DNA of 41,076 bases, from contig CANPWY010000003.1 of NCBI GenBank assembly GCA_947585215.1, positions 1 to 41,076 of the forward strand, in the 5' to 3' direction. Under the pieces are notes generated by a model. It was not told where the DNA came from and did not search any database. It was given only the letters and a program-made list of their open reading frames with translations. The translations under genes were made by a program, and so were the position numbers. Source of the DNA: an uncultured Clostridia bacterium. Lineage in GTDB: Bacteria > Bacillota > Clostridia > Oscillospirales > JAAYOS01. Within the stretch, counting starts at the first letter, position 1. Each line of letters opens with the position of its first letter. Shown piece after piece: positions 17,000 to 30,828 of the stretch.

Positions 17000-18196
17000 T
17001 TACTCCGTTATCTTAAATCCTGCCTTTGTCAATTCTGCGCGGATTTCCTCTATCTGCTCAAAGTCGCGGGTCTCCATGCCTATCGTGAGGAAGCAGCTCG
17101 CTATCGCCATGTTGGCGTCCGAGCGCTCGTGGTGAACGCTCACGACGTTCGCACCGCACCTCGATATTATCTCGCTCACGCCGACGAGCTGGCCCGGCTT
17201 GTCCTCGAGCGCTATCTGGAGCGTGGCGTTCCTTCCGGAGGTCACGAGGCCGCGCGTTATCACGCGCGAGAGTATGTTCACGTCGATATTTCCGCCGGAG
17301 AGGACGCAGACTACCTTTTTCCCAGCTATCGGCAGCTTGTCAAACATCGCCGCCGCGACGCTCACTGCTCCCGCGCCCTCGGTGATGAGCTTCTGCTTCT
17401 CGATGAGCGCGAGTATCGCCGCCGCCGTCTCGTCCTCGCTCACGGTGACGATGTCGTCGACGTACTTGCCTATCATGTCAAACGTTATATCGCCCGGGTG
17501 CTTGACGGCGATGCCGTCGGCAAAGGTCTCCACCGCGCCGAGGGTTATCGGTTTGCCCGCGCGGCGGCTCTCGAGCATGCTTGCCGCGCGCTCCGCCTGC
17601 ACGCCGTACACTTTGACCTCCGGACGGAGGTGCTTTATCACATAAGCCACGCCGGAGATGAGTCCGCCGCCGCCTATCGGCAGAATAACGGCGTCGAGGT
17701 CCTGAAGCTGGTCGAGTATCTCGAGCCCTACGGTTCCCTGTCCCGCGATGACCTCGTCGTCGTCAAACGGATGGATGAAGGTCATGCCGGTCTCGTCGCG
17801 GAGACGGACGGCCTCGGCATACGCGTCGTCATACGTCCCGGGGACGAGTCGCACCTCAGCGCCGAGCGCCTTTGTCGCCTCGACCTTGCTTATCGGCGCG
17901 CCGTCCGCCATGCAGACGATGCTCCGTATGCCGTTCTTCGTCGCGGCAAGCGCCACGCCCTGCGCGTGGTTTCCCGCACTGCACGCGATTATCCCGGCGC
18001 GCTTCTGCTCCTCCGAGAGTCGGCTTATCTTGTAGTAGGCGCCGCGAAGCTTGAAGCTTCCGGTCACCTGAAGGTTTTCGGTCTTGAGGTATATCTGCGA
18101 GCGCGTCGAGAGCTTCTCCGAGTAGATGAGGTCGGTCTTTCGCGCGACCCCTTTCAGCACGAACGCCGCCTGATACACCTTGTCAAGTGTCACCAT
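17000..18196 (-). CDS. ilvA: Threonine ammonia-lyase with C-terminal ACT-type domain
   Basis: PLP motif TGSFKLRGAYYK, SAGNHAQGVA, GGGGLISG; C-terminal ALEDKPGQLVGVSEIISRCGANVVSVHHER. Confidence 0.94.
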   Translation of the reverse strand: MVTLDKVYQAAFVLKGVARKTDLIYSEKLSTRSQIYLKTENLQVTGSFKLRGAYYKISRLSEEQKRAGIIACSAGNHAQGVALAATKNGIRSIVCMADGAPISKVEATKALGAEVRLVPGTYDDAYAEAVRLRDETGMTFIHPFDDDEVIAGQGTVGLEILDQLQDLDAVILPIGGGGLISGVAYVIKHLRPEVKVYGVQAERAASMLESRRAGKPITLGAVETFADGIAVKHPGDITFDMIGKYVDDIVTVSEDETAAAILALIEKQKLITEGAGAVSVAAAMFDKLPIAGKKVVCVLSGGNIDVNILSRVITRGLVTSGRNATLQIALEDKPGQLVGVSEIISRCGANVVSVHHERSDANMAIASCFLTIGMETRDFEQIEEIRAELTKAGFKITE

Positions 18197-18199
18197 ATC

Positions 18200-19498
18200 C
18201 TAACCCCTATCCGAGTTTTTTGCCGCGAGCATATCCACAAACTGCTGAGCCGTCCGCCCGGAGACGCCTCCGTGGCGTATCTCCCAGCGGTTTGCCTCGA
18301 GCAGCAGAGTCTTCTCGTCCATGTCTATGCCGCGCCGCACGGCAAGAGTCCTCACTATTTCGTAGAACTCCTCGCGCGCGGGCGTTGAGAAGTTTATCAG
18401 TATCCCGAACCTCTCCGCAAGCGACAGCTTCTCCTCCATCGTGTCCGAGCGGTGGATGTCGCCGTCGTGCTCCATGTCGCTTCGGTCGTTCCACGTCTCC
18501 TTTATGAGGTGGCGGCGGTTCGACGTGGCGTAGATGAGGACGTTTTCCGGCTTCAAAGCTATGCCGCCCTCTATGACCGCCTTGAGGAACTTGTACTCGA
18601 CCTCGTGCTCCTCGAAGGACAGGTCGTCTATGAACACGACAAAGCGGTAGTTCCGCTCTCTCAGCCGGCTCATCAGCGGCGCGAGCATTCCGAACTGGTG
18701 CTTGTATATCTCCACTGCGCGAAGACCGCGCTCCGCGTACTCGTTTATTACGGCGCGGACGCTCGTGCTCTTGCCGGTGCCGCTGTCGCCGTAGAGAAGG
18801 ACGTTATTCGCGCTCCTTCCCGAGACGAATGCCTCGGTGTTTTCGACGAGCGCCGCCTTCTGCCGCTCACAGCCTACGATGTCACTGAGGCGCGCGGAAC
18901 CGTCCCCGCGAGCGGGGATGAGCTCTCCCCCGTCGCCTATGCGGAAGGCGCGGTCGAGCGCGAATATTCCCGCGCCGTACTGCCGGTAGAACTCGGTCAC
19001 TATGCGGTACGCTTCCTCCTCGTCCTCCGCCGCGGCCATATCGCGCGCGAGCGCGGTTATCCTCTCCCCCGACTCGCGCCGCTCCGCACAGCCCGCGGGC
19101 AGGCGGAAGTCGGACACGGCGGAGAAGCAGTCAAGGCCGAGCTCGCTTTCGAGCTTCGAGAAGTCGTACCGGAAGAGGCGCAGAAGGACGGCGAGGTCGC
19201 GCTTTGCAAGCCTCTCCGTGCCGCCCGCGCCCTCCGCGCCGCGACGCTCGCACGCGAGCGAGAACGGGTTCTCGTCGGTCGCTATCCTCAGCGCGAGGCA
19301 ATCCTGCCAGAGGTTTCCCTCGAGACCGCAGCGCACGGCGAGCTCCACCATACCGCGAACGCACGCGTTTATCGCGCGGACGACCGTGAACCTGTCCTCG
19401 CCGCGCTTCTTTGTCTCGAGCGCGGCGCAGAGCGCTTCGAGTATGCCGTCCCTGCGGCTGCCGCCGTAGAGCAGCAGCCGCGAAGTCTCCTTATACAT
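18200..19498 (-). CDS. AAA ATPase, DUF815-like
   Basis: Walker A YGDSGTGKST, FVVFIDDLSFEEHEVEYKFLKAVIEGG, IYATSNRRHLIKETWNDR. Confidence 0.85.
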   Translation of the reverse strand: MYKETSRLLLYGGSRRDGILEALCAALETKKRGEDRFTVVRAINACVRGMVELAVRCGLEGNLWQDCLALRIATDENPFSLACERRGAEGAGGTERLAKRDLAVLLRLFRYDFSKLESELGLDCFSAVSDFRLPAGCAERRESGERITALARDMAAAEDEEEAYRIVTEFYRQYGAGIFALDRAFRIGDGGELIPARGDGSARLSDIVGCERQKAALVENTEAFVSGRSANNVLLYGDSGTGKSTSVRAVINEYAERGLRAVEIYKHQFGMLAPLMSRLRERNYRFVVFIDDLSFEEHEVEYKFLKAVIEGGIALKPENVLIYATSNRRHLIKETWNDRSDMEHDGDIHRSDTMEEKLSLAERFGILINFSTPAREEFYEIVRTLAVRRGIDMDEKTLLLEANRWEIRHGGVSGRTAQQFVDMLAAKNSDRG

Positions 19499-19505
19499 GG
19501 TTTCG

Positions 19506-20570
19506 TTATTCCACCGTCGTTCTCCAGCCGAACTCGTCCGGGAGGACGCCGGTCTGGATTCCGGTCACTGTGTCATAGAGGCGCTGGCTGACGGGGCCGA
19601 TGTTCCCGTCGCCTATCTGCATGACCTCGTCCTTGAAGCGGAGCTTTCCGACGGGCGAAATGACCGCCGCCGTGCCGGTGCCGAAGACCTCCTCGAGCGC
19701 GCCGGACTTCTGCGCCGCGATGAGCTCGTCCACCGAGATCTTCCGCTCCTCCGTGGGAAGACCCCAGTGGCGGCAGAGGTGCAGGACCGAGTCGCGCGTG
19801 ATGCCGGGCAGGATACTGCCGTTCAGCATCGGCGTGACTATCTTCCCGTCTATCTTGAAGAAGATGTTCATCGCGCCGACTTCCTCTATGTACTTACGCT
19901 CCACGCCGTCGAGCCAGAGCACCTGAGAGTAGCCGGAGTCGTGCGCCTTGACCTGCGCCGCGAGGCTCGCGGCGTAGTTGCCGCCGGTCTTCGTGAAGCC
20001 GACGCCGCCGCGCACCGCGCGCACGAAGTCGTCCTCTATCCAGATACCGACCGGAGCAAGGCCGCTCTCGTAGTACGCGCCGCTCGGCGAGAGGATTATA
20101 ACGAACAGATAAGTCTCGCTCGGCTTTACTCCGAGGAACGGGTCGGTCGCTATGATGAACGGGCGGATGTAGAGCGAGGTACCCGCCTCGGTGGGTATCC
20201 AGTCCTCGTCCACCTTCACGACGGTCTTGACGGCCTGTACGAAGTCCTCCTCGGGGATAAGCGGGATGCAGAGACGCTCGTTTGAGCGGTTGGCGCGCTT
20301 CGCGTTCATGTCCGGGCGGAAGAGATAGCTCTTCCCGTCCGCGCCTCGGTACGCCTTGAGTCCCTCGAACATCTCCTGTCCGTAGTGGAACACCATCGCC
20401 GCCGGGGAGAGGGTGAAGTCCGCAAAGGGTACGACGCGCGGGTCGTGCCAGCCCTTCCCCTCGGTGTAGTTCATGACGAACATGTGGTCGGTGAATATCT
20501 TGCCGAATCCGAGCGGGCCCTGCGGCTTCGCCTTCGGCTTGTCGGTCTTTACTATCTTGATGTCAAGCAC
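19506..20570 (-). CDS. ilvE: Branched-chain amino acid aminotransferase
   Basis: HYGQEMFEGLKAYRG, SAYYESG-like region, EEVFGTGTAAVISPVG. GTG at 20570 chosen because GAGGTGATC lies upstream (the track uses GTG 20579). Confidence 0.94.
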   Translation of the reverse strand: MLDIKIVKTDKPKAKPQGPLGFGKIFTDHMFVMNYTEGKGWHDPRVVPFADFTLSPAAMVFHYGQEMFEGLKAYRGADGKSYLFRPDMNAKRANRSNERLCIPLIPEEDFVQAVKTVVKVDEDWIPTEAGTSLYIRPFIIATDPFLGVKPSETYLFVIILSPSGAYYESGLAPVGIWIEDDFVRAVRGGVGFTKTGGNYAASLAAQVKAHDSGYSQVLWLDGVERKYIEEVGAMNIFFKIDGKIVTPMLNGSILPGITRDSVLHLCRHWGLPTEERKISVDELIAAQKSGALEEVFGTGTAAVISPVGKLRFKDEVMQIGDGNIGPVSQRLYDTVTGIQTGVLPDEFGWRTTVE

Positions 20571-20595
20571 AACGATCACCTCAAATTCGGACTGC

Positions 20596-21666
20596 TTACA
20601 GTCTCTTTATTATCTCCCCGGTCATTTCGGTGCAGGTGAGGGCTTCGCCCTCGCCGACAAGTATGTCCGCCGTGCGGAGGCCCTCCTCGAGCACCGCGCC
20701 GACCGCGCCCTCTATGGCGTCTGCCTCGCGCGTGAGGCCGAAGGAGTAACGGAGCATCATCGCGGCGGAGAGCACCGTCGCGATAGGATTTGCCTTGTTC
20801 TGCCCCGCGATGTCCGGCGCGGAGCCGTGTATCGGCTCGTAAAGTCCCCTTGTCCCGCTTCCGAGCGAGGCGGAGGCGAGCAGGCCTATCGAGCCGGTTA
20901 TCTGGCTTGCCTCGTCGGAGAGTATGTCGCCAAACATATTCGACGTCACTATGACGTCAAACTTGGACGGGTCGCGGACGAGCTGCATCGCGGCGTTGTC
21001 CACGAGCATATCCGCAACCGTGACGTCCGGGTACTCCTCCGCCACGCGGTGGACCGTCTCGCGCCAGAGGCGCGAGGTCTCGAGGACGTTCGCCTTGTCG
21101 ATGCTCGTGACGTGACAGCGGCGCTTACGCGCCGTCTCGAACGCGACGCGCGCTATCCGCTCTATCTCGTAGACGCTGTACGCCTCGGTGTCGTACGCCT
21201 CCGGGCCGTACTTTCCCTCACGCCGGCCGCGCTCTCCGAAGTAGATGCCGCCGGTGAGCTCGCGCACTATCACGAGGTCGATGCCCTTACCCACGATGTC
21301 CGCGCGGAGGACGCACGCGTCCTTCAATGCGGGGTAAATCTTCGCGGGGCGGAGGTTCGTGAAGAGCTCCATCGCCGCGCGAAGGCCGAGCAGCGCCTTC
21401 TCCGGGCGGATGTCGCCCGAGAGCCCGTCCCACTTGGGTCCGCCGACCGCGCCGAGCAGGACGCTGTCGCTCTCAAGGCAACCACGCACCGTCTCCTCCG
21501 GAAGCGGGATGCCGAATTTGTCTATCGCCTCGCCGCCCGCGGGGTACGCGGTGAAGTGAAAGACGTGGCCGAACTTCTCGCCGACCTTTTCGAGCACCGC
21601 GACAGCGCTCTCCACTATCTCGGGGCCTATTCCGTCGCCCTTGATGAGCGCAATATTGTATTCCAT
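20596..21666 (-). CDS. leuB: 3-isopropylmalate dehydrogenase
   Basis: [62 protein letters not shown] overlaps the leuD stop (TGATG). Confidence 0.96.
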
Positions 21667-22166
21667 CAGTCCTTCGCCCCCGTCTGCTTTGCCTTGATGT
21701 ACTTCAGAAGTCCGCCGCTCTCGATTATCCCCTGTATGAACTCGGGGAAGGCGGCGGCCTTGAAGGTCTCGCCCGTCGTCTCGTCGGTGATGACGCCGGT
21801 TGCGAGGTCGACCGTGACGGTGTCTCCGCTCTTTATCTTCTCGGCGGCCTCCGGGCACTCGAGAATGGGAAAGCCGATGTTTATCGCGTTGCGGTAGAAG
21901 ATGCGCGCAAAGCTCGCCGCTATGACGCAGGACACGCCGCTCGCGCGTATCGCCAGCGGCGCGTGCTCACGGGAGGAGCCGCAGCCGAAGTTCGCGCCGC
22001 CGACCATGATGTCGCCGGGGTGCATCTTATGCACGAACTCGGGGTCGATGTCCTCCATGCAGTGGCGCGCAAGCTCCTCCGGGGAGGGCGAGTTCAGATA
22101 GCGGGCGGGGATTATGACGTCGGTATCCACGTTGTCCCCGTACTTGAAAACCGTTCCCTTGATCAT
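21666..22166 (-). CDS. leuD: 3-isopropylmalate dehydratase small subunit
   Basis: [33 protein letters not shown]. Confidence 0.96.
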
Positions 22167-23437
22167 TTTGACGCCTCCTCAAGCTCATATGGCGACGCCA
22201 CGCATCCCGCGACGGCGCTCGCCGCCGCGACGGCGGGGCTCGCGAGTATGACTTCGCTCTTCGTGTGTCCCATCCTGCCGACGAAGTTGCGGTTAGTGGT
22301 CGTGACCGCGCGCTCGCCCGCGCTCATGACGCCCATGTGTCCGCCGAGGCAGGGCCCGCAGGTCGGGGTGGAGAGAGCGCATCCGCTCTTTATGAATATC
22401 TCCGCAAGTCCCTCGGTAAGGCACTGCAAATATACCTCCTGCGTCGCGGGTATGACGATACAGCGGACACCCGGGGCGACCTTCCTGCCCTTCAGTATCC
22501 CCGCCGCCATGCGCAGGTCGGAGATGCGTCCGTTCGTGCAGGAGCCTATGACGACCTGGTCGATGTGCAGTCCCTTCACCTCGTCCACGGTCTTCGTGTT
22601 CGAGGGGAGGTGCGGCATGGATACGGTGGGCTTCAAGGTCGAGAGGTCTATAGTGACCTCACGCTCATACTCAGCGTCCTCATCGGCTTCGTAGACCTTT
22701 ATCGGACGGTCGAAGCGTCCCTTAACATACTCGAGCGTCTTCTCGTCGACCGGGAAGATGCCGTTCTTGCCGCCCGCCTCTATGGCCATATTCGAGATGG
22801 TGAAGCGGTCGTCCATCGAGAGCGACGCGACGCCGGGGCCCGTGAACTCTATCGACTTATAGAGCGCGCCGTCCACGCCGATAAGACCTATCAGGTGGAG
22901 TATCACGTCCTTGCCGCCGACGTACTTCGGCAGCGTTCCCACGAGGTTCACCTTTATCGCGGAGGGCACCTTGAACCAGTTCTCGCCGGACGCCATTCCC
23001 GCCGCCATGTCGGTGGAGCCGATGCCGGTCGAGAACGCGCCGAGAGCGCCGTAGGTGCAGGTGTGCGAGTCCGCGCCGACGACGCAGTCGCCGGGGCCGA
23101 CGAGCCCCTGCTCGGGGAGCAGAGCGTGCTCGATGCCGACGGTTCCCACGTCGTAGAAGTGAGTGATACCGAAGCGGTGCGCGAATTCGCGCGCCGTGGC
23201 GCAGAGCTCCGCGGACTTTATGTCCTTGCAGGGCGTGTAGTGGTCGAGAACTATGACTATCTTGTCCCTGTCGAATACCTTGTCAAAGCCCGCCTCGTCG
23301 AATACGTTTATCGCCACGGGGGTCGTGACGTCGTTGCCGAGGACTATGTCGAGCTTGGCCTCAATGAGATCGCCCGCCTTTACGCTCGGAAGTCCGGCGT
23401 GGGCGGCGAGGATCTTCTGCGTCATTGTCATTCCCAT
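22163..23437 (-). CDS. leuC: 3-isopropylmalate dehydratase large subunit
   Basis: [50 protein letters not shown]. Confidence 0.96.
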
Positions 23438-23441
23438 ACGC

Positions 23442-24992
23442 TTATTCCTCCTTTGCGGGCTCCGCCGCCATGCCCGCGGCGCGCATCTTGTTGAGCGCCG
23501 TGAGGTAGGCGGTGATGCTCGCCTCGATTATGTCGGTCGAAAGTCCCTTGCCGGAGTAGCTTCTGCCGCCGGCGGAAAGCTTCACCGTGACGTCTCCGAG
23601 GGTGTCCTTGCCCTCTGAAATGGAGTTTATCGAGTAGATGTCGAAGGTGTGCTCGCCCGGCTTCACTATCCCGTCTATCGCCTTGAAGGAGGCGTCTATC
23701 GGCCCGTCTCCGAGCGCGACGCCCTCGAACTTCTCGCCGTCGAGCTTGAGGCAGACGGTGCTCGTGGAGGTGGTGAAGTTGCTCGTGTGCGCCGCGAACC
23801 AGTCGAGCTCGTAGCCGGAGACGCTCTCGTCGGTGCGGGAGCGGTGCATGACTATCGCCTCGATGTCCGCGTCGTTTATCGACTTTTTCTTGTCGCAGAG
23901 CACCTTGAACTCCTCAAAGCAGCTGACGAGCTCCTCCGGGCCGAGATTGTAGCCGAGCTCGTGCAGGCGGCTCTCGAAGGCGTGCTTGCCGGAGTGCTTG
24001 CCGAGGACTATCGAGTTCGCGTGTATGCCGACGGCCTCCGGGGTGAGTATCTCGTAGGTCATGCGGTTTGCGAGGACGCCGTGCTGATGTATCCCCGCCT
24101 CGTGCGCGAAGGCGTTCTTGCCGACTATCGGCTTGTTTATCGGCGCGGTCTGACCGATGATGTTATAGACGAGCTTGCTTGCGCGGTAGATTTGCGTGGT
24201 GTCGAGACGGGTGTTCGCGCGGTAGACGTCCGGGCGGGTGTGGAGCGCCATGACTATCTCCTCGAGAGCGGAGTTTCCCGCGCGCTCGCCGAGGCCGTTT
24301 ATCGTGCACTCGACCTGCCTCGCGCCGCCGAGGACGCCGGCAAGCGAGTTTGCCGTCGCCATACCGAGGTCGTTGTGGCAGTGGACCGAGAACTCCACGC
24401 CGTCGGGATGCTCCACCCCGGCCATGACGTACTCGATGAGCGCGCGCATCTCCGCCGGCGTGGTGTAGCCGACGGTGTCCGGGAGGTTGATGACGGTCGC
24501 GCCGCACTTTATGGCGGCGTTCACTACCTTGCGAAGGAAGTCCCAGTCGCTTCTGGTGGCGTCCTCTGCCGAGAACTCGACGTTTTTGCAGTACTTCGCG
24601 GCGTAGGAGACCATTTTCTGCACCGTCTCGTACACCTCGTCCGGCGTCATGCGGAGCTTGTACTCCATGTGAAGCGGGCTCGTCGCGATGAAGGTATGTA
24701 TGCGCGGGTCTGCCGCACCCTTCACCGCCTCCCACGCGGCGTCTATGTCGCCGACGGTCGCCCGCGCGAGGGACGCGACGGTGCAGTCCTTGACGGTCTC
24801 CGCTATCGTCTTCACCGACTCGAAGTCGCCGGGGGACGAGATGGCAAAGCCCGCCTCTATGACGTCCACGCGCAGCTTCTCGAGCGCGCGCGCGACCTCT
24901 ATCTTCTCGCTGAGGTTCATGCTGCAGCCCGGCGACTGCTCGCCGTCCCGCAGGGTCGTATCGAATATTTTTACCTTATTCATCTTAGTCAC
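23442..24992 (-). CDS. leuA: 2-isopropylmalate synthase
   Basis: [37 protein letters not shown]-terminal LeuA allosteric domain. Confidence 0.96.
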
Positions 24993-24998
24993 CTCAAG

Positions 24999-26663
24999 CT
25001 ATACCGTAAGAATGGCGCCCTTGTCGGCGGAGGATACGAGCTTCGCGTATCTCGCGAGGTAGCCCGTCTTCACCTTCGGCTCGGGCGGCGTCCAGCGGGC
25101 GCGGCGGGCTTCAAGCTCTTCGTCGGACACCTCGATTGAGATCGAGAAGCCGCGTATGTCTATCGAGATGATGTCGCCCTCCTCAATGAGCGCGATATTG
25201 CCGCCCGCGGCGGCCTCCGGGCTGACGTGGCCAATCGCCGCGCCGCGCGTCGCGCCGGAGAAGCGTCCGTCGGTGATGAGCGCGACGCTCGAACCGAGCC
25301 CCATTCCGACTATCGCGGAGGTGGGATTCAGCATCTCGCGCATACCGGGGCCGCCCTTCGGTCCCTCGTAGCGGATAACGACAACGTCGCCGGGGTTTAT
25401 CTTCCTTGAGTAGATGGCGGCGATGGCGTCCTCCTCCGAGTCAAAGACGCGCGCGGGGCCGCGGTGCGTCATCATCTCCTCCGCGACGGCGGACTGCTTT
25501 ACGACGCACCCGTCCGGGGCGAGGTTCCCCTTGAGGACGGCTATGCCGCCCGTCGGGGAGAACGGATTTTCCGCCGGACGGATGATCTCCGTGTCGAGAT
25601 TCTTCGCGTCCTTCAGGTTCTCCTCCATCGTCCCGCCGGTGACGGTCAGGACGGAGAGGTCGAGCAGGTTCTTCTTTGTGAGCTCCTTCATGACGGCGTA
25701 GACGCCGCCCGCGCGGTCGAGGTCCTCCATGAAGGTGTCCCCCGCCGGGGCGAGGTGGCAGAGGTTCGGCGTGCGGCGGCTTATCTCGTTCGACATGTCG
25801 AGGCTTATGTCGATGCCCGCCTCGTGCGCTATCGCAGGAAGGTGCAGCATGGTGTTTGTGGAGCATCCGAGCGCCATATCGACCGTCTCGGCGTTGTGGA
25901 ACGCCGCCTCGGTCATGATGTCGAGCGGGCGGATGTTCCGCCGCACGAGCTCCATCACCTGCATGCCGCTCTTCTTTGCAAGCCGGATGCGCGCCGAGTA
26001 CGGCGCGGGGATCGTGCCGTTGCCGGGGAGCGCCATGCCAATAGCCTCCGCGAGGCAGTTCATCGAGTTTGCGGTGTACATTCCCGAGCAGGAGCCGCAG
26101 GAGGGGCAGGCGTTCTCCTCGTAGTCGGTGACGCCCGCCTCATCGAGCGTGCCCGCGTGGTAGGCTCCGACCGCCTCGAACATGTGGCTGAGGCAGGTGC
26201 GGCGGCCGTCCTTGAGGTGCCCCGAAAGCATCGGCCCGCCGGAGCATATAACTGTCGGGACGTTTATCCGCGCCGCCGCCATGAGCAGCCCGGGAACGTT
26301 CTTGTCGCAGTTCGGTATCATCACGAGGCCGTCGAACTGATGGGCTATCGCCATGGCCTCGGTGGAGTCGGCAATGAGGTCGCGCGTGACGAGCGAGTAC
26401 TTCATGCCGATGTGACCCATCGCGATGCCGTCGCAGACGGCTATCGCCGGAAACATTATCGGCGTTCCGCCCGCAAGTCGGATGCCGGCCTTCACCGCCT
26501 CCGCTATCTTGTCGAGGTGCATGTGTCCGGGCACGACCTCGTTATACGAGCTGACGACGCCGATTATCGGCCGCGCCATCTCCTCCTCGGTGAGCCCGAG
26601 GGCGTAGAGCAGGCTGCGGTTCGGAGCCCGCTCCACCCCCTGTTTGATATTCTGAGAATTCAT
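24999..26663 (-). CDS. ilvD: Dihydroxy-acid dehydratase
   Basis: [60 protein letters not shown]. Confidence 0.97.
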
Positions 26664-26676
26664 AATCCCTCCGCGC

Positions 26677-28228
<1,552 letters not shown>

Positions 28229-28239
28229 CTTCTCACCTC

Positions 28240-29952
28240 TCAGGAAACTATGAACTCGGTGATATGCGCGCCGCCGCTCACCATCGGGCGCACCATCTCG
28301 TCGGTATCTATAGCGCAGTCTATGACGTAGCCGTGGCCGTACTCCCGCGCCTCCGCTATAGCCCGCTCGAGCTCCGCGACGTTCGAGACCCTGCATCCCT
28401 TCAGCCCGTAGGCCTCCGCGAGCTTCACAAAGTCCGGCGCGAAGTCGAGCGTGGTCTGGCTGAATCGTTTGTCGTATATGAGGTTCTGCCACTGGCGCAC
28501 CATTCCGAGCGTCCTGTTGTCAAAGACGAAGGTTATTACCGGGATGTCGTAGTGCTGCTCGGTGGCAAGCTCGTTGCAGTTCATGCGGAAGGAGCCGTCT
28601 CCGGTGATGTGTATGACCGTCTTTTCGGGGTTTGCGACCTTCGCGCCTATCGCCGCCCCGAGGCCGAAGCCCATCGTTCCGAAGCCGCCCGAGGTGAGGA
28701 GTTGACCGGGATAGTCGAAGCGGAAGTGCTGTATCGCCCACATCTGGTGCTGTCCTACGTCGGTGGAGACGATGGTGTCCTGCGGCATGAGCCGCGCTAT
28801 GGCGGTGAGTATCTGCTTCGGGGTGAGGGTGTTGCCGCCCTCGTCGTACTCGGTCTCGGTCTTGAAGGAGAAGACGTACTTCTTCCACTCGGCGTGGTCC
28901 TGCGGCTCGAGGCGCTCGTTGAGTCTGCTCAGCACCAGCGCCGCGTCCCCGACGATGTGGTGGTCGGTCTTTACGTTCTTGTTTATCTCCGCGCGGTCGA
29001 TGTCTATCTGGACGATCTTCGCCTGCGCGGCGAAGCTCGAGGGCTTGAGCGCAACGCGGTCGCTGAAGCGGCACCCGACCGCCACGAGCAGGTCGCACCC
29101 GTCGCAGGCCATGTTGGAGGCCTGCGTGCCGTGCATGCCTATCATGCCGGTGACGAGCGGGTTCCGCCCGACTATGCCGCCCGCGCCCATGACGGTTATC
29201 GCCACGGGAGAATCTATCTTCTCGGCAAACTCGGTGAATTCCTTCTGCGCCCTGCCCCGGACGACGCCGCCGCCGCATATCAGGAGCGGCTTCTTCGAGG
29301 CGCGTATCATGTCCGCGAGAATGTTGATGTCGCGGTCGTTCGGCTCGGGCGCGCGGAAGTCGTGCGAGGCGCGCTTGATGAGCGCGGCGAGGCGTCCGTT
29401 GTTCGCGTGCTCGCTTCGCGGTATCGAGGTAAACTCCGCCTCCTCCGCCGTGACGTTCTTGAGTATGTCAATGAGCACCGGTCCCGGACGTCCGCTCCGC
29501 GCTATCGCGAACGCCTCGCGGACTATGTCCGCGAGCTGAGCGACGTCCCGCACGAGGTAGTTACACTTTGTTATCGGCATGGTGATACCGGTTATGTCGA
29601 CCTCCTGGAACGAGTCCTTGCCCATGAGGTTTTCGCTGACGTTGCAGGAGATGAACACCACCGGGGACGAGTCCATGTAAGCCGTGGCTATGCCGGTGAC
29701 GAGGTTCGTCGCGCCCGGGCCGGATGTTGCAAAGCACACGCCGACTTTTCCGGTGCTCCGCGCGTAGCCGTCCGCTGCGTGTGCGGCGCCCTGCTCGTGC
29801 GCGGTGAGGATGTGGCGGATCTTCCCGTCATACCGGTACATCTCGTCGTACACGTTCAGTATCGTTCCGCCGGGGTATCCGAAGACGGTGTCCACTCCCT
29901 GCTCGAGAAGACACTCCATCAGTATTTTCGCGCCGGTCATTCTCATGCGCAT
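28240..29952 (-). CDS. ilvB: Acetolactate synthase large subunit
   Basis: GVDTVFGYPGGTILNVYDEMY; GDGSFRMNCNELATEQHYDIPV (TPP-binding). Confidence 0.96.
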   Translation of the reverse strand: MRMRMTGAKILMECLLEQGVDTVFGYPGGTILNVYDEMYRYDGKIRHILTAHEQGAAHAADGYARSTGKVGVCFATSGPGATNLVTGIATAYMDSSPVVFISCNVSENLMGKDSFQEVDITGITMPITKCNYLVRDVAQLADIVREAFAIARSGRPGPVLIDILKNVTAEEAEFTSIPRSEHANNGRLAALIKRASHDFRAPEPNDRDINILADMIRASKKPLLICGGGVVRGRAQKEFTEFAEKIDSPVAITVMGAGGIVGRNPLVTGMIGMHGTQASNMACDGCDLLVAVGCRFSDRVALKPSSFAAQAKIVQIDIDRAEINKNVKTDHHIVGDAALVLSRLNERLEPQDHAEWKKYVFSFKTETEYDEGGNTLTPKQILTAIARLMPQDTIVSTDVGQHQMWAIQHFRFDYPGQLLTSGGFGTMGFGLGAAIGAKVANPEKTVIHITGDGSFRMNCNELATEQHYDIPVITFVFDNRTLGMVRQWQNLIYDKRFSQTTLDFAPDFVKLAEAYGLKGCRVSNVAELERAIAEAREYGHGYVIDCAIDTDEMVRPMVSGGAHITEFIVS

Positions 29953-30005: not shown

Positions 30006-30045
30006 TTAAAAAGCCCTGCGGCCTAAAAGCTAGACCGTAGGACTT
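30006..30045 (-). terminator. Intrinsic terminator/attenuator upstream of ilvB
   Basis: Minus strand AAGTCCTACGGTCTA-GCTTT-TAGGCCGCAGGGCTT then TTTAATTT: 15-position stem with one A/C mismatch and two G-U pairs. Confidence 0.85.
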
Positions 30046-30100
30046 GCAAAAATCTCATTCATTCTGTCGGCTTTGAATATCCAACCGTACTTTTTGCAGT

Positions 30101-30196
30101 TCAGGCACAACTTTTAGCGCTATTTTCACATTTCGACTCGGAAAGGAAAATAACGGCTAGTAGAAGTATGGATATCGCGACAAAACCGAGAGACAT
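30101..30196 (-). CDS. Putative Ile/Leu/Val-rich leader peptide of the ilv-leu operon (31 aa)
   Basis: MSLGFVAISILLLAVIFLSESKCENSAKSCA; between a strong promoter and the attenuator. SD is weak (GGGCGG), which limits confidence in the start. Confidence 0.65.
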   Translation of the reverse strand: MSLGFVAISILLLAVIFLSESKCENSAKSCA

Positions 30197-30248
30197 ATCT
30201 GATACCGCCCAAACCCGGAGACCCGTGGCGTCTCCTGTTGTTTTTCGC

Positions 30249-30277
30249 ATTATAGCACGTCCCGGCGGCGTTGTCAA
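30249..30277 (-). promoter_or_regulatory. sigma70 promoter of the ilv-leu operon
   Basis: Minus strand TTGACA (30277-30272) - 17 nt - TATAAT (30254-30249), exact consensus hexamers. Confidence 0.9.
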
Positions 30278-30582
30278 TAGTAATTTTATTCGCGGCAAAT
30301 CGCGCTCGCTTCGCTCGCTTACCAATTTGCCGCGAAAGCACCGTGCAGAGCTATGCTCTGCACGGTGCTTTGCGCTGCGCTACGCGCCGAGTTTTCCGCC
30401 TACGGCGGAAAATCGACGCACGCTACGCGATATGTGTTTTTTCCGACGTACACGCCGCCGGAAAAAACGGATTGGAATTTATTTCGCCGCTTACGCGGCG
30501 AAACTCTGCGAGGCGGACGCGGCCAAGCCGCTCCGCGCTGGTTCGCGCGGTTGATGTTGCCGCAGGCAACATCGCGCAGGCA

Positions 30583-30828
30583 AATCACATTCAAGGTCGG
30601 CTTTGCCCGCGAAGCGGGTAAAGCTCACGAGGGCTGAATATGTTCCGATGAGGAATATGTCGGCGCCCTCGTGTTCCGCGCCTGTTCGCGCGGTTAAAGT
30701 TGTTTGCCGAAGGCAAACAACTTTGCGGAGCCCAATCACGTTCAAGGTCGGGCTTTGCCCGCGAAGCGGGCAAAGCTCACGAGGGCTGAATATGCTTCGA
30801 TGAGGAATGTGTCGGCGCCCTCGTGTTC
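30583..30828. repeat. Two imperfect tandem copies of a ~95-bp hairpin element (30583-30676, 30734-30828)
   Basis: Shared AATCAC(A/G)TTCAAGGTCGG(G)CTTTGCCCGCGAAGCGGG(T/C)AAAGCTCACGAGGGCTGAATATG...GTCGGCGCCCTCGTGTTC. Confidence 0.85.

Follow-up and report, generated by a model that had tools for sequence, protein, structure and literature searches.

A predicted leader-peptide attenuator upstream of a clostridial ilv-leu operon and its relatives in gut Clostridia

Accounts of branched-chain amino acid (BCAA) control in Bacillota usually centre on CodY and T-boxes. The window analysed here (the whole stretch of 41,076 nucleotides from an uncultured Clostridia bacterium) carries the gene set ilvBNCD-leuACDB-ilvE-[DUF815]-ilvA, which comprises the whole branched-chain pathway. 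CodY (PF06018) was not found in this 91%-complete genome, and its five T-boxes all lie outside the window leader, with the genes behind them including valS- and pheS-like synthetases (identified by eye). How, then, is this operon controlled? An earlier note on the same DNA had proposed ribosome-mediated attenuation by a leader peptide. Comparative evidence bears out that class of mechanism, though not the core switch as first drawn, in which the antiterminator was misidentified and the protector helix was missed. We consider it very probable that a translation-coupled transcription attenuator controls the operon through ribosome stalling at Leu, Ile and Val codons.

Anatomy of the ilvB leader

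The features of the leader and operon are collected in Table 1. The consensus promoter that had been noticed before is present by direct reading and regular-expression search, and is followed by a leader ORF that extends from an ATG at 30196 to a UGA at 30103-30101, as read directly and by script. Nine of 14 residues in the peptide are Ile, Leu or Val, as previously stated; an equally dense ATG-initiated ORF appeared in 0/3000 dinucleotide shuffles of the leader, and in 18/3000 when GTG and TTG starts were allowed. The Shine-Dalgarno sequence is weak in the window leader, as the earlier note had cautioned, and in the window genus, though clear AGGAG/GAGG motifs are found in most relatives. In most leaders segment 1 falls at about codon 14, a spacing with which the ATG at 30196 agrees.

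Table 1. Features of the ilvB leader and its operon, in window coordinates
Feature	Position	Strand	Basis or remark
Promoter TTGACA-17-TATAAT	30277-30249	-	sequence reading and regex
Leader ORF MSLGFVAISILLLAVIFLSESKCENSAKSCA, predicted, 31 aa	30196-30101	-	stop included; sequence, script, conserved spacing
Segment 1, proposed protector 5' strand, AGCCGUUAUUUUC	30158-30146	-	within Leu/Ala/Val/Ile/Phe codons
Segment 2, whole	30127-30104	-	at ORF end
Segment 2, first half, GAAAAUAGCGCU	30127-30116	-	partner of segment 1; family helix 91% paired
Segment 2, second half, CUAAAAGUUGUGCC	30117-30104	-	proposed antiterminator 5' strand; inside ORF
Candidate nested antiterminator extension, 5' strand, ACUGCAAAAA	30100-30091	-	
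Candidate nested extension, 3' strand, UUUUUGCAAGU	30052-30042	-	
Intrinsic terminator hairpin GUCCUACGGUCUA-gcuuu-UAGGCCGCAGGGC	30043-30013	-	U-run 30012-30008
Segment 3, GGUCUAGCUUUUAG	30036-30023	-	top of terminator 5' arm, loop, first 3'-arm bases
ilvB, first controlled gene	28240-29952	-	Pfam
ilvN, ilvC, ilvD, leuA, leuC, leuD, leuB	20596-28492	-	Pfam
Aminotransferase class IV (ilvE-like), DUF815 ATPase, threonine dehydratase-like (ilvA)	17000-20579	-	Pfam; probable continuation of operon

Two other possible starts were seen. An ATG at 30251-30249 shares bases with the -10 box (TATAATG). It is in the same reading frame as the leader ORF and would open a 49-codon ORF if transcription began further upstream; we rejected this start because it precedes the point where the transcript is expected to begin and disrupts the conserved codon-14 spacing. 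Separately, an AGGAG at about 30230 precedes a possible ACG start. Upstream of the promoter, positions 30281-30776 hold a succession of GC-rich palindromes, perfect or nearly so (for example 30335-30371 and 30696-30724), with arms of 9-17 nt and loops of mostly 3 nt, possibly an interspersed palindromic repeat family. At the far end of the operon, a DUF815 AAA ATPase gene sits between the ilvE-like and ilvA-like genes.

Within the leader, segments 1 and 2 (AGCCGUUAUUUUC with GAAAAUAGCGCU) can form a helix of 12 bp with one bulge, and segments 2 and 3 (CUAAAAGUUGUGCC with GGUCUAGCUUUUAG) a helix of ten pairs, one mismatch and three pairs; the UGA stop codon lies directly 3' of segment 2. The helices 1:2 and 2:3 and the terminator are mutually exclusive because both helices draw on segment 2 and the terminator apex is itself segment 3. 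Since segment 3 adjoins the terminator 3' arm without a linker, 2:3 and the full terminator should be unable to coexist. Folded as a single structure, the whole leader has ordinary stability (z = -1.28), so total energy is uninformative and the signal lies in comparative covariation.

Comparative evidence for a three-segment switch

For 80 leaders whose terminator was good, we used the terminator loop as bait and searched the 200 nt upstream of it, with no prior assumption, for an ungapped complement. In most leader-type loci the best match lay in the C-terminal codons of the ORF (loop/leader pairs include CUGAAAGUU/AACUUUCAG, GCCAAAAGU/ACUUUUGGC, GUUAAUGUU/AACAUUAAC and GCCAAACGUC/GACGUUUGGC). 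All three segments are conserved across dozens of gut Clostridia, among which the common version of helix 1:2 pairs AGCAUUAUUC with GAAUAGUGCU.

Taken alone, the window gives a modest per-sequence shuffle p of 0.07 for 2:3, and the case therefore depends on the family. When leaders were exchanged between species, native 2:3 pairing scored 20.05 against 15.33 +/- 0.41, with a maximum of 16.82 in 5000 permutations. The corresponding values for 1:2 (19.81 native, 17.81 exchanged, sd 0.51) are less instructive because the 1:2 sequence is so conserved. In an alignment of 38 leaders (A1), helix 1:2 is 91% paired with both sides changed in 6/11 pairs, helix 2:3 is 80% paired with both sides changed in 7/9, and the terminator, which the earlier note had called strong, is 89% paired with double changes in 13/13. 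The 26 double-change cells of helix 2:3 were reached in 0/500 shuffles, a statistic inflated by the kinship of the sequences and to be read with the fact that leaders entered the alignment and covariance model partly for their pairing. Sliding the partner by one column clearly lowered the pairing of 1:2, 2:3 and the terminator alike. Both helices and the terminator thus show covariation; 1:2 is the putative default OFF state and 2:3 the putative antiterminator.

Ile, Leu and Val make up 68% of control-zone codons in 40 leaders, and the rare Leu codon CUA accounts for 43/119 Leu codons in the control zones (36%), compared with 4/243 (1.6%) in the window's operon. Rare CUA Leu codons are likewise found in the control region of leuL. 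Most IlvB relatives carry a short ORF with an Ile/Leu/Val core and an NSAKSCA-like end, usually behind a good Shine-Dalgarno sequence. The segment 2 RNA is nevertheless retained in five loci (L062, L066, L098, L102 and L108) whose ORF ends upstream of segment 2 or part-way through it, and in L051, where the ORF carries a frameshift compared with the sister locus L048. Conservation of segment 2 where it is frameshifted or untranslated indicates that selection acts on the RNA, and the recurring NSAKSCA peptide is therefore accounted for by RNA pairing.

These observations suggest how the leader may work. After RNA polymerase starts at the promoter, a ribosome would enter the 31-codon leader and, if Leu-, Ile- or Val-tRNA were scarce, would stall in AUA-UCC-AUA-CUU-CUA-CUA-GCC-GUU-AUU and mask segment 1. 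Free segment 2 could then pair with segment 3 as it emerges, before the terminator 3' arm exists, and 2:3 would block the full terminator and let polymerase continue into ilvB. With ample charged tRNA, the ribosome would reach the stop codon and either cover segment 2 or have passed so that 1:2 re-forms; segment 3 would be free for the terminator, and transcription would end.

Folding models of the leader with and without a ribosome agree with this scheme in part. With the RNA 3' end at 30023, P(1:2) is 0.97-1 and P(2:3) is 0 when the RNA is free or the ribosome sits at the stop, and P(2:3) rises to 0.98, 0.80 and 0.78 for a ribosome at Ile10, Leu11 and Leu13, respectively; this simple model yielded no 2:3 when the stall was placed at Val15 or beyond. 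For full-length RNA at equilibrium the terminator is preferred in every ribosome state, so the ON state would have to be kinetic, as in other attenuators.

The earlier note had assigned the antiterminator role to ACUGCAAAAA:UUUUUGCAAGU, which a ribosome at the stop codon would cover and a stalled one would free. The complementarity is there: the stem is a 10-bp complement, ranks 1/39 in the exchange test for the window, where it is strongest, and has a family mean slightly above exchange (12.76 against 11.49 +/- 0.36). However, a good version occurs in few relatives, a motif search for TGCAAA/TTTGCA found it not conserved among them, its overlap with the terminator arm is only 2-4 nt, and the helix that covaries is 2:3. 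We judge it unlikely that this stem is the key antiterminator; it fits best as an extension nested inside 2:3 that probably lengthens the antiterminator in the window genus. The further stem proposed between 30175-30164 and 30092-30077 draws on spacer sequence that lacks conservation in the family alignment.

A constitutive terminator that happens to follow a chance hydrophobic ORF would suit the weak Shine-Dalgarno sequence and ordinary fold stability, but we regard it as very improbable given the ATG-ORF shuffles, the conserved spacing from start to segment 1, the covariation in dozens of leaders and the association with ilvB and leuA. Equally hard to credit is a functional small membrane peptide with incidental RNA features, for which the hydrophobicity and recurring NSAKSCA-like end might speak: I, L and V replace one another freely in the peptide core, and the end is lost to frameshift or early stops in the loci described above, where the RNA is conserved. 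A T-box, ppGpp or other ligand riboswitch lying below detection would be in keeping with the T-boxes found by Rfam before ilvB in nine relatives and at five sites elsewhere in the window genome, and with the ppGpp riboswitches by which certain Firmicutes regulate ilv genes (PMC10272879). Against it, neither the window nor the scanned leader-bearing relatives gave an Rfam match, no T-box sequence is present, and the conserved parts are a coding region and a terminator apex; we give this reading almost no weight. The leader is real and most likely functional, and the ribosome-mediated attenuator remains our preferred account of it.

Distribution and evolution of the leader family

Searching the window leader against Rfam 15 yielded no match at the gathering cut-off, T-box and enterobacterial leader families included, and none meaningful at E<=10; for the T-box (RF00230), neither a covariance match nor the UGGNACCGCG box was found, in line with what had been reported before. 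No Rfam family for this leader type was found in the leader-bearing relatives scanned, and the L041 leader likewise had no match at E<=10.

The leader is shared by three other genomes of the window genus (IlvB 98-99% identical), and IlvB proteins 73-83% identical occur in numerous MAGs of gut Clostridia and in a small number of cultured strains. The order-mates L018, L023 and L025 have IlvB only about 50% identical, yet a short NSAKSCA-type ORF is present. A covariance model (R1) has a single site in the window genome and identifies leaders before 57/80 related ilvB genes (E <= 1e-7). Across the order, with the window genus and training set left aside, it matched 11 loci (E<1e-6). Each of these precedes ilvB; about half are near-copies of training leaders and the others (L155, L156, L157, L158 (= L018), L159 and L161) are not. 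Apart from one at L023, weaker matches in the order are ordinary terminators. Among 392 genomes sampled across the class, the convincing matches fall in other orders, where they precede leuA-like genes (L118, L119, L120, L122) or ilvB (L128, L131) and have Ile/Leu/Val-rich ORFs; a 399-genome phylum sample held no convincing match beyond the window. The leuA-like genes behind the Leu/Ile-rich leader ORFs of L118, L119, L120 and L122 are distant and belong to another order, and in L118-L120 the ORF ends in NSAICR/NSAVCR.

Some related ilvB genes carry a T-box, detected by Rfam in L010, L015, L017, L019, L021, L026, L028, L043 and L056 and by T-box sequence in L014, L038 and L042. Neither T-box nor attenuator was detected in five close relatives (L060, L072, L074, L084 and L088), which may have some other control or have lost it. 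MAGs labelled Chloroflexi/Anaerolineaceae (L096, L103, L104 and L112) encode IlvB nested among clostridial sequences with the attenuator absent, attributable either to horizontal transfer or to mis-binning.

On an exploratory IlvB gene tree (FastTree), T-box and leader states require at least four changes. The window IlvB groups with Oscillospiraceae- and Lachnospiraceae-labelled MAGs and is far from the IlvB of its own family (50-53% identity, one of those with a T-box); one congener of the window genome has only a distant IlvB (48%). Operon and leader were likely acquired horizontally. More broadly, we think there is a good chance that these leaders form an undescribed, uniform BCAA attenuator family widespread in gut Clostridia (Oscillospiraceae-, Lachnospiraceae-, Evtepia- and Parasporobacterium-type, plus the window's order), with an antiterminator that attacks the terminator apex, several exchanges with T-boxes on ilvB and travel between lineages with the operon.

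Many gut Clostridia appear to rely on ribosome-mediated attenuation of the classical type, through a well-defined RNA. As the RNA family is missing from Rfam, ilv/leu leaders in gut Clostridia have probably gone unannotated. Where one of two close IlvB relatives has a T-box and its counterpart an attenuator, they form a natural pair for studying tRNA-switch replacement, and the cultured carriers Evtepia gabavorous KLE1738 and Clostridium viride DSM 6836 make the mechanism testable.

Relation to known attenuators

We classify the leader as an undescribed RNA family with a known type of mechanism, trp/ilv-type attenuation; the open-access literature, to which our search was confined, held no description of this clostridial leader family, and Rfam no match. 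The enterobacterial ilvGMEDA, ilvBN and leuABCD leaders likewise combine a BCAA-codon peptide, protector/antiterminator/terminator logic and CUA Leu codons. The clostridial leader differs from them in phylum, in having segments 1 and 2 mostly inside the ORF, in using the terminator apex as an antiterminator strand and in matching no Rfam leader model.

Within Firmicutes, attenuation of ilv genes is less unusual than the earlier note had stated: the S. aureus ilvD attenuator is experimentally supported, and others are predicted in L. lactis and Streptococcus (PMC5794164). The S. aureus system shares with ours a Bacillota ilv-leu operon, the lack of a T-box, a BCAA-rich leader peptide, a terminator and a proposed antiterminator; by its description it is set apart by ilvD as first gene, action alongside CodY and an antiterminator that uses the terminator U-tail (PMC5794164). 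Histidine leader-peptide attenuators in C. difficile and its relatives and in Erysipelotrichales similarly serve Firmicutes without the usual regulator, but they belong to a different operon and are a different RNA (PMC9413887).

Analogous leaders precede actinobacterial ilvB (PMC1262725, PMC10272879). The uORF motifs ilvB-II (Corynebacterium) and ilvB-OMG also represent uORF-based attenuation before ilvB, and in ilvB-II the hairpin loop participates in the antiterminator, as proposed for the window leader; these motifs differ in lineage and consensus (PMC10272879), and no Rfam family scored on the clostridial leaders. The ilvB T-box (RF00230) senses the same charged tRNAs before the same gene and alternates with the attenuator among close IlvB relatives. 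It does so by binding tRNA directly, without translation, and is absent from the window leader, where the proposed sensor is a translating ribosome.
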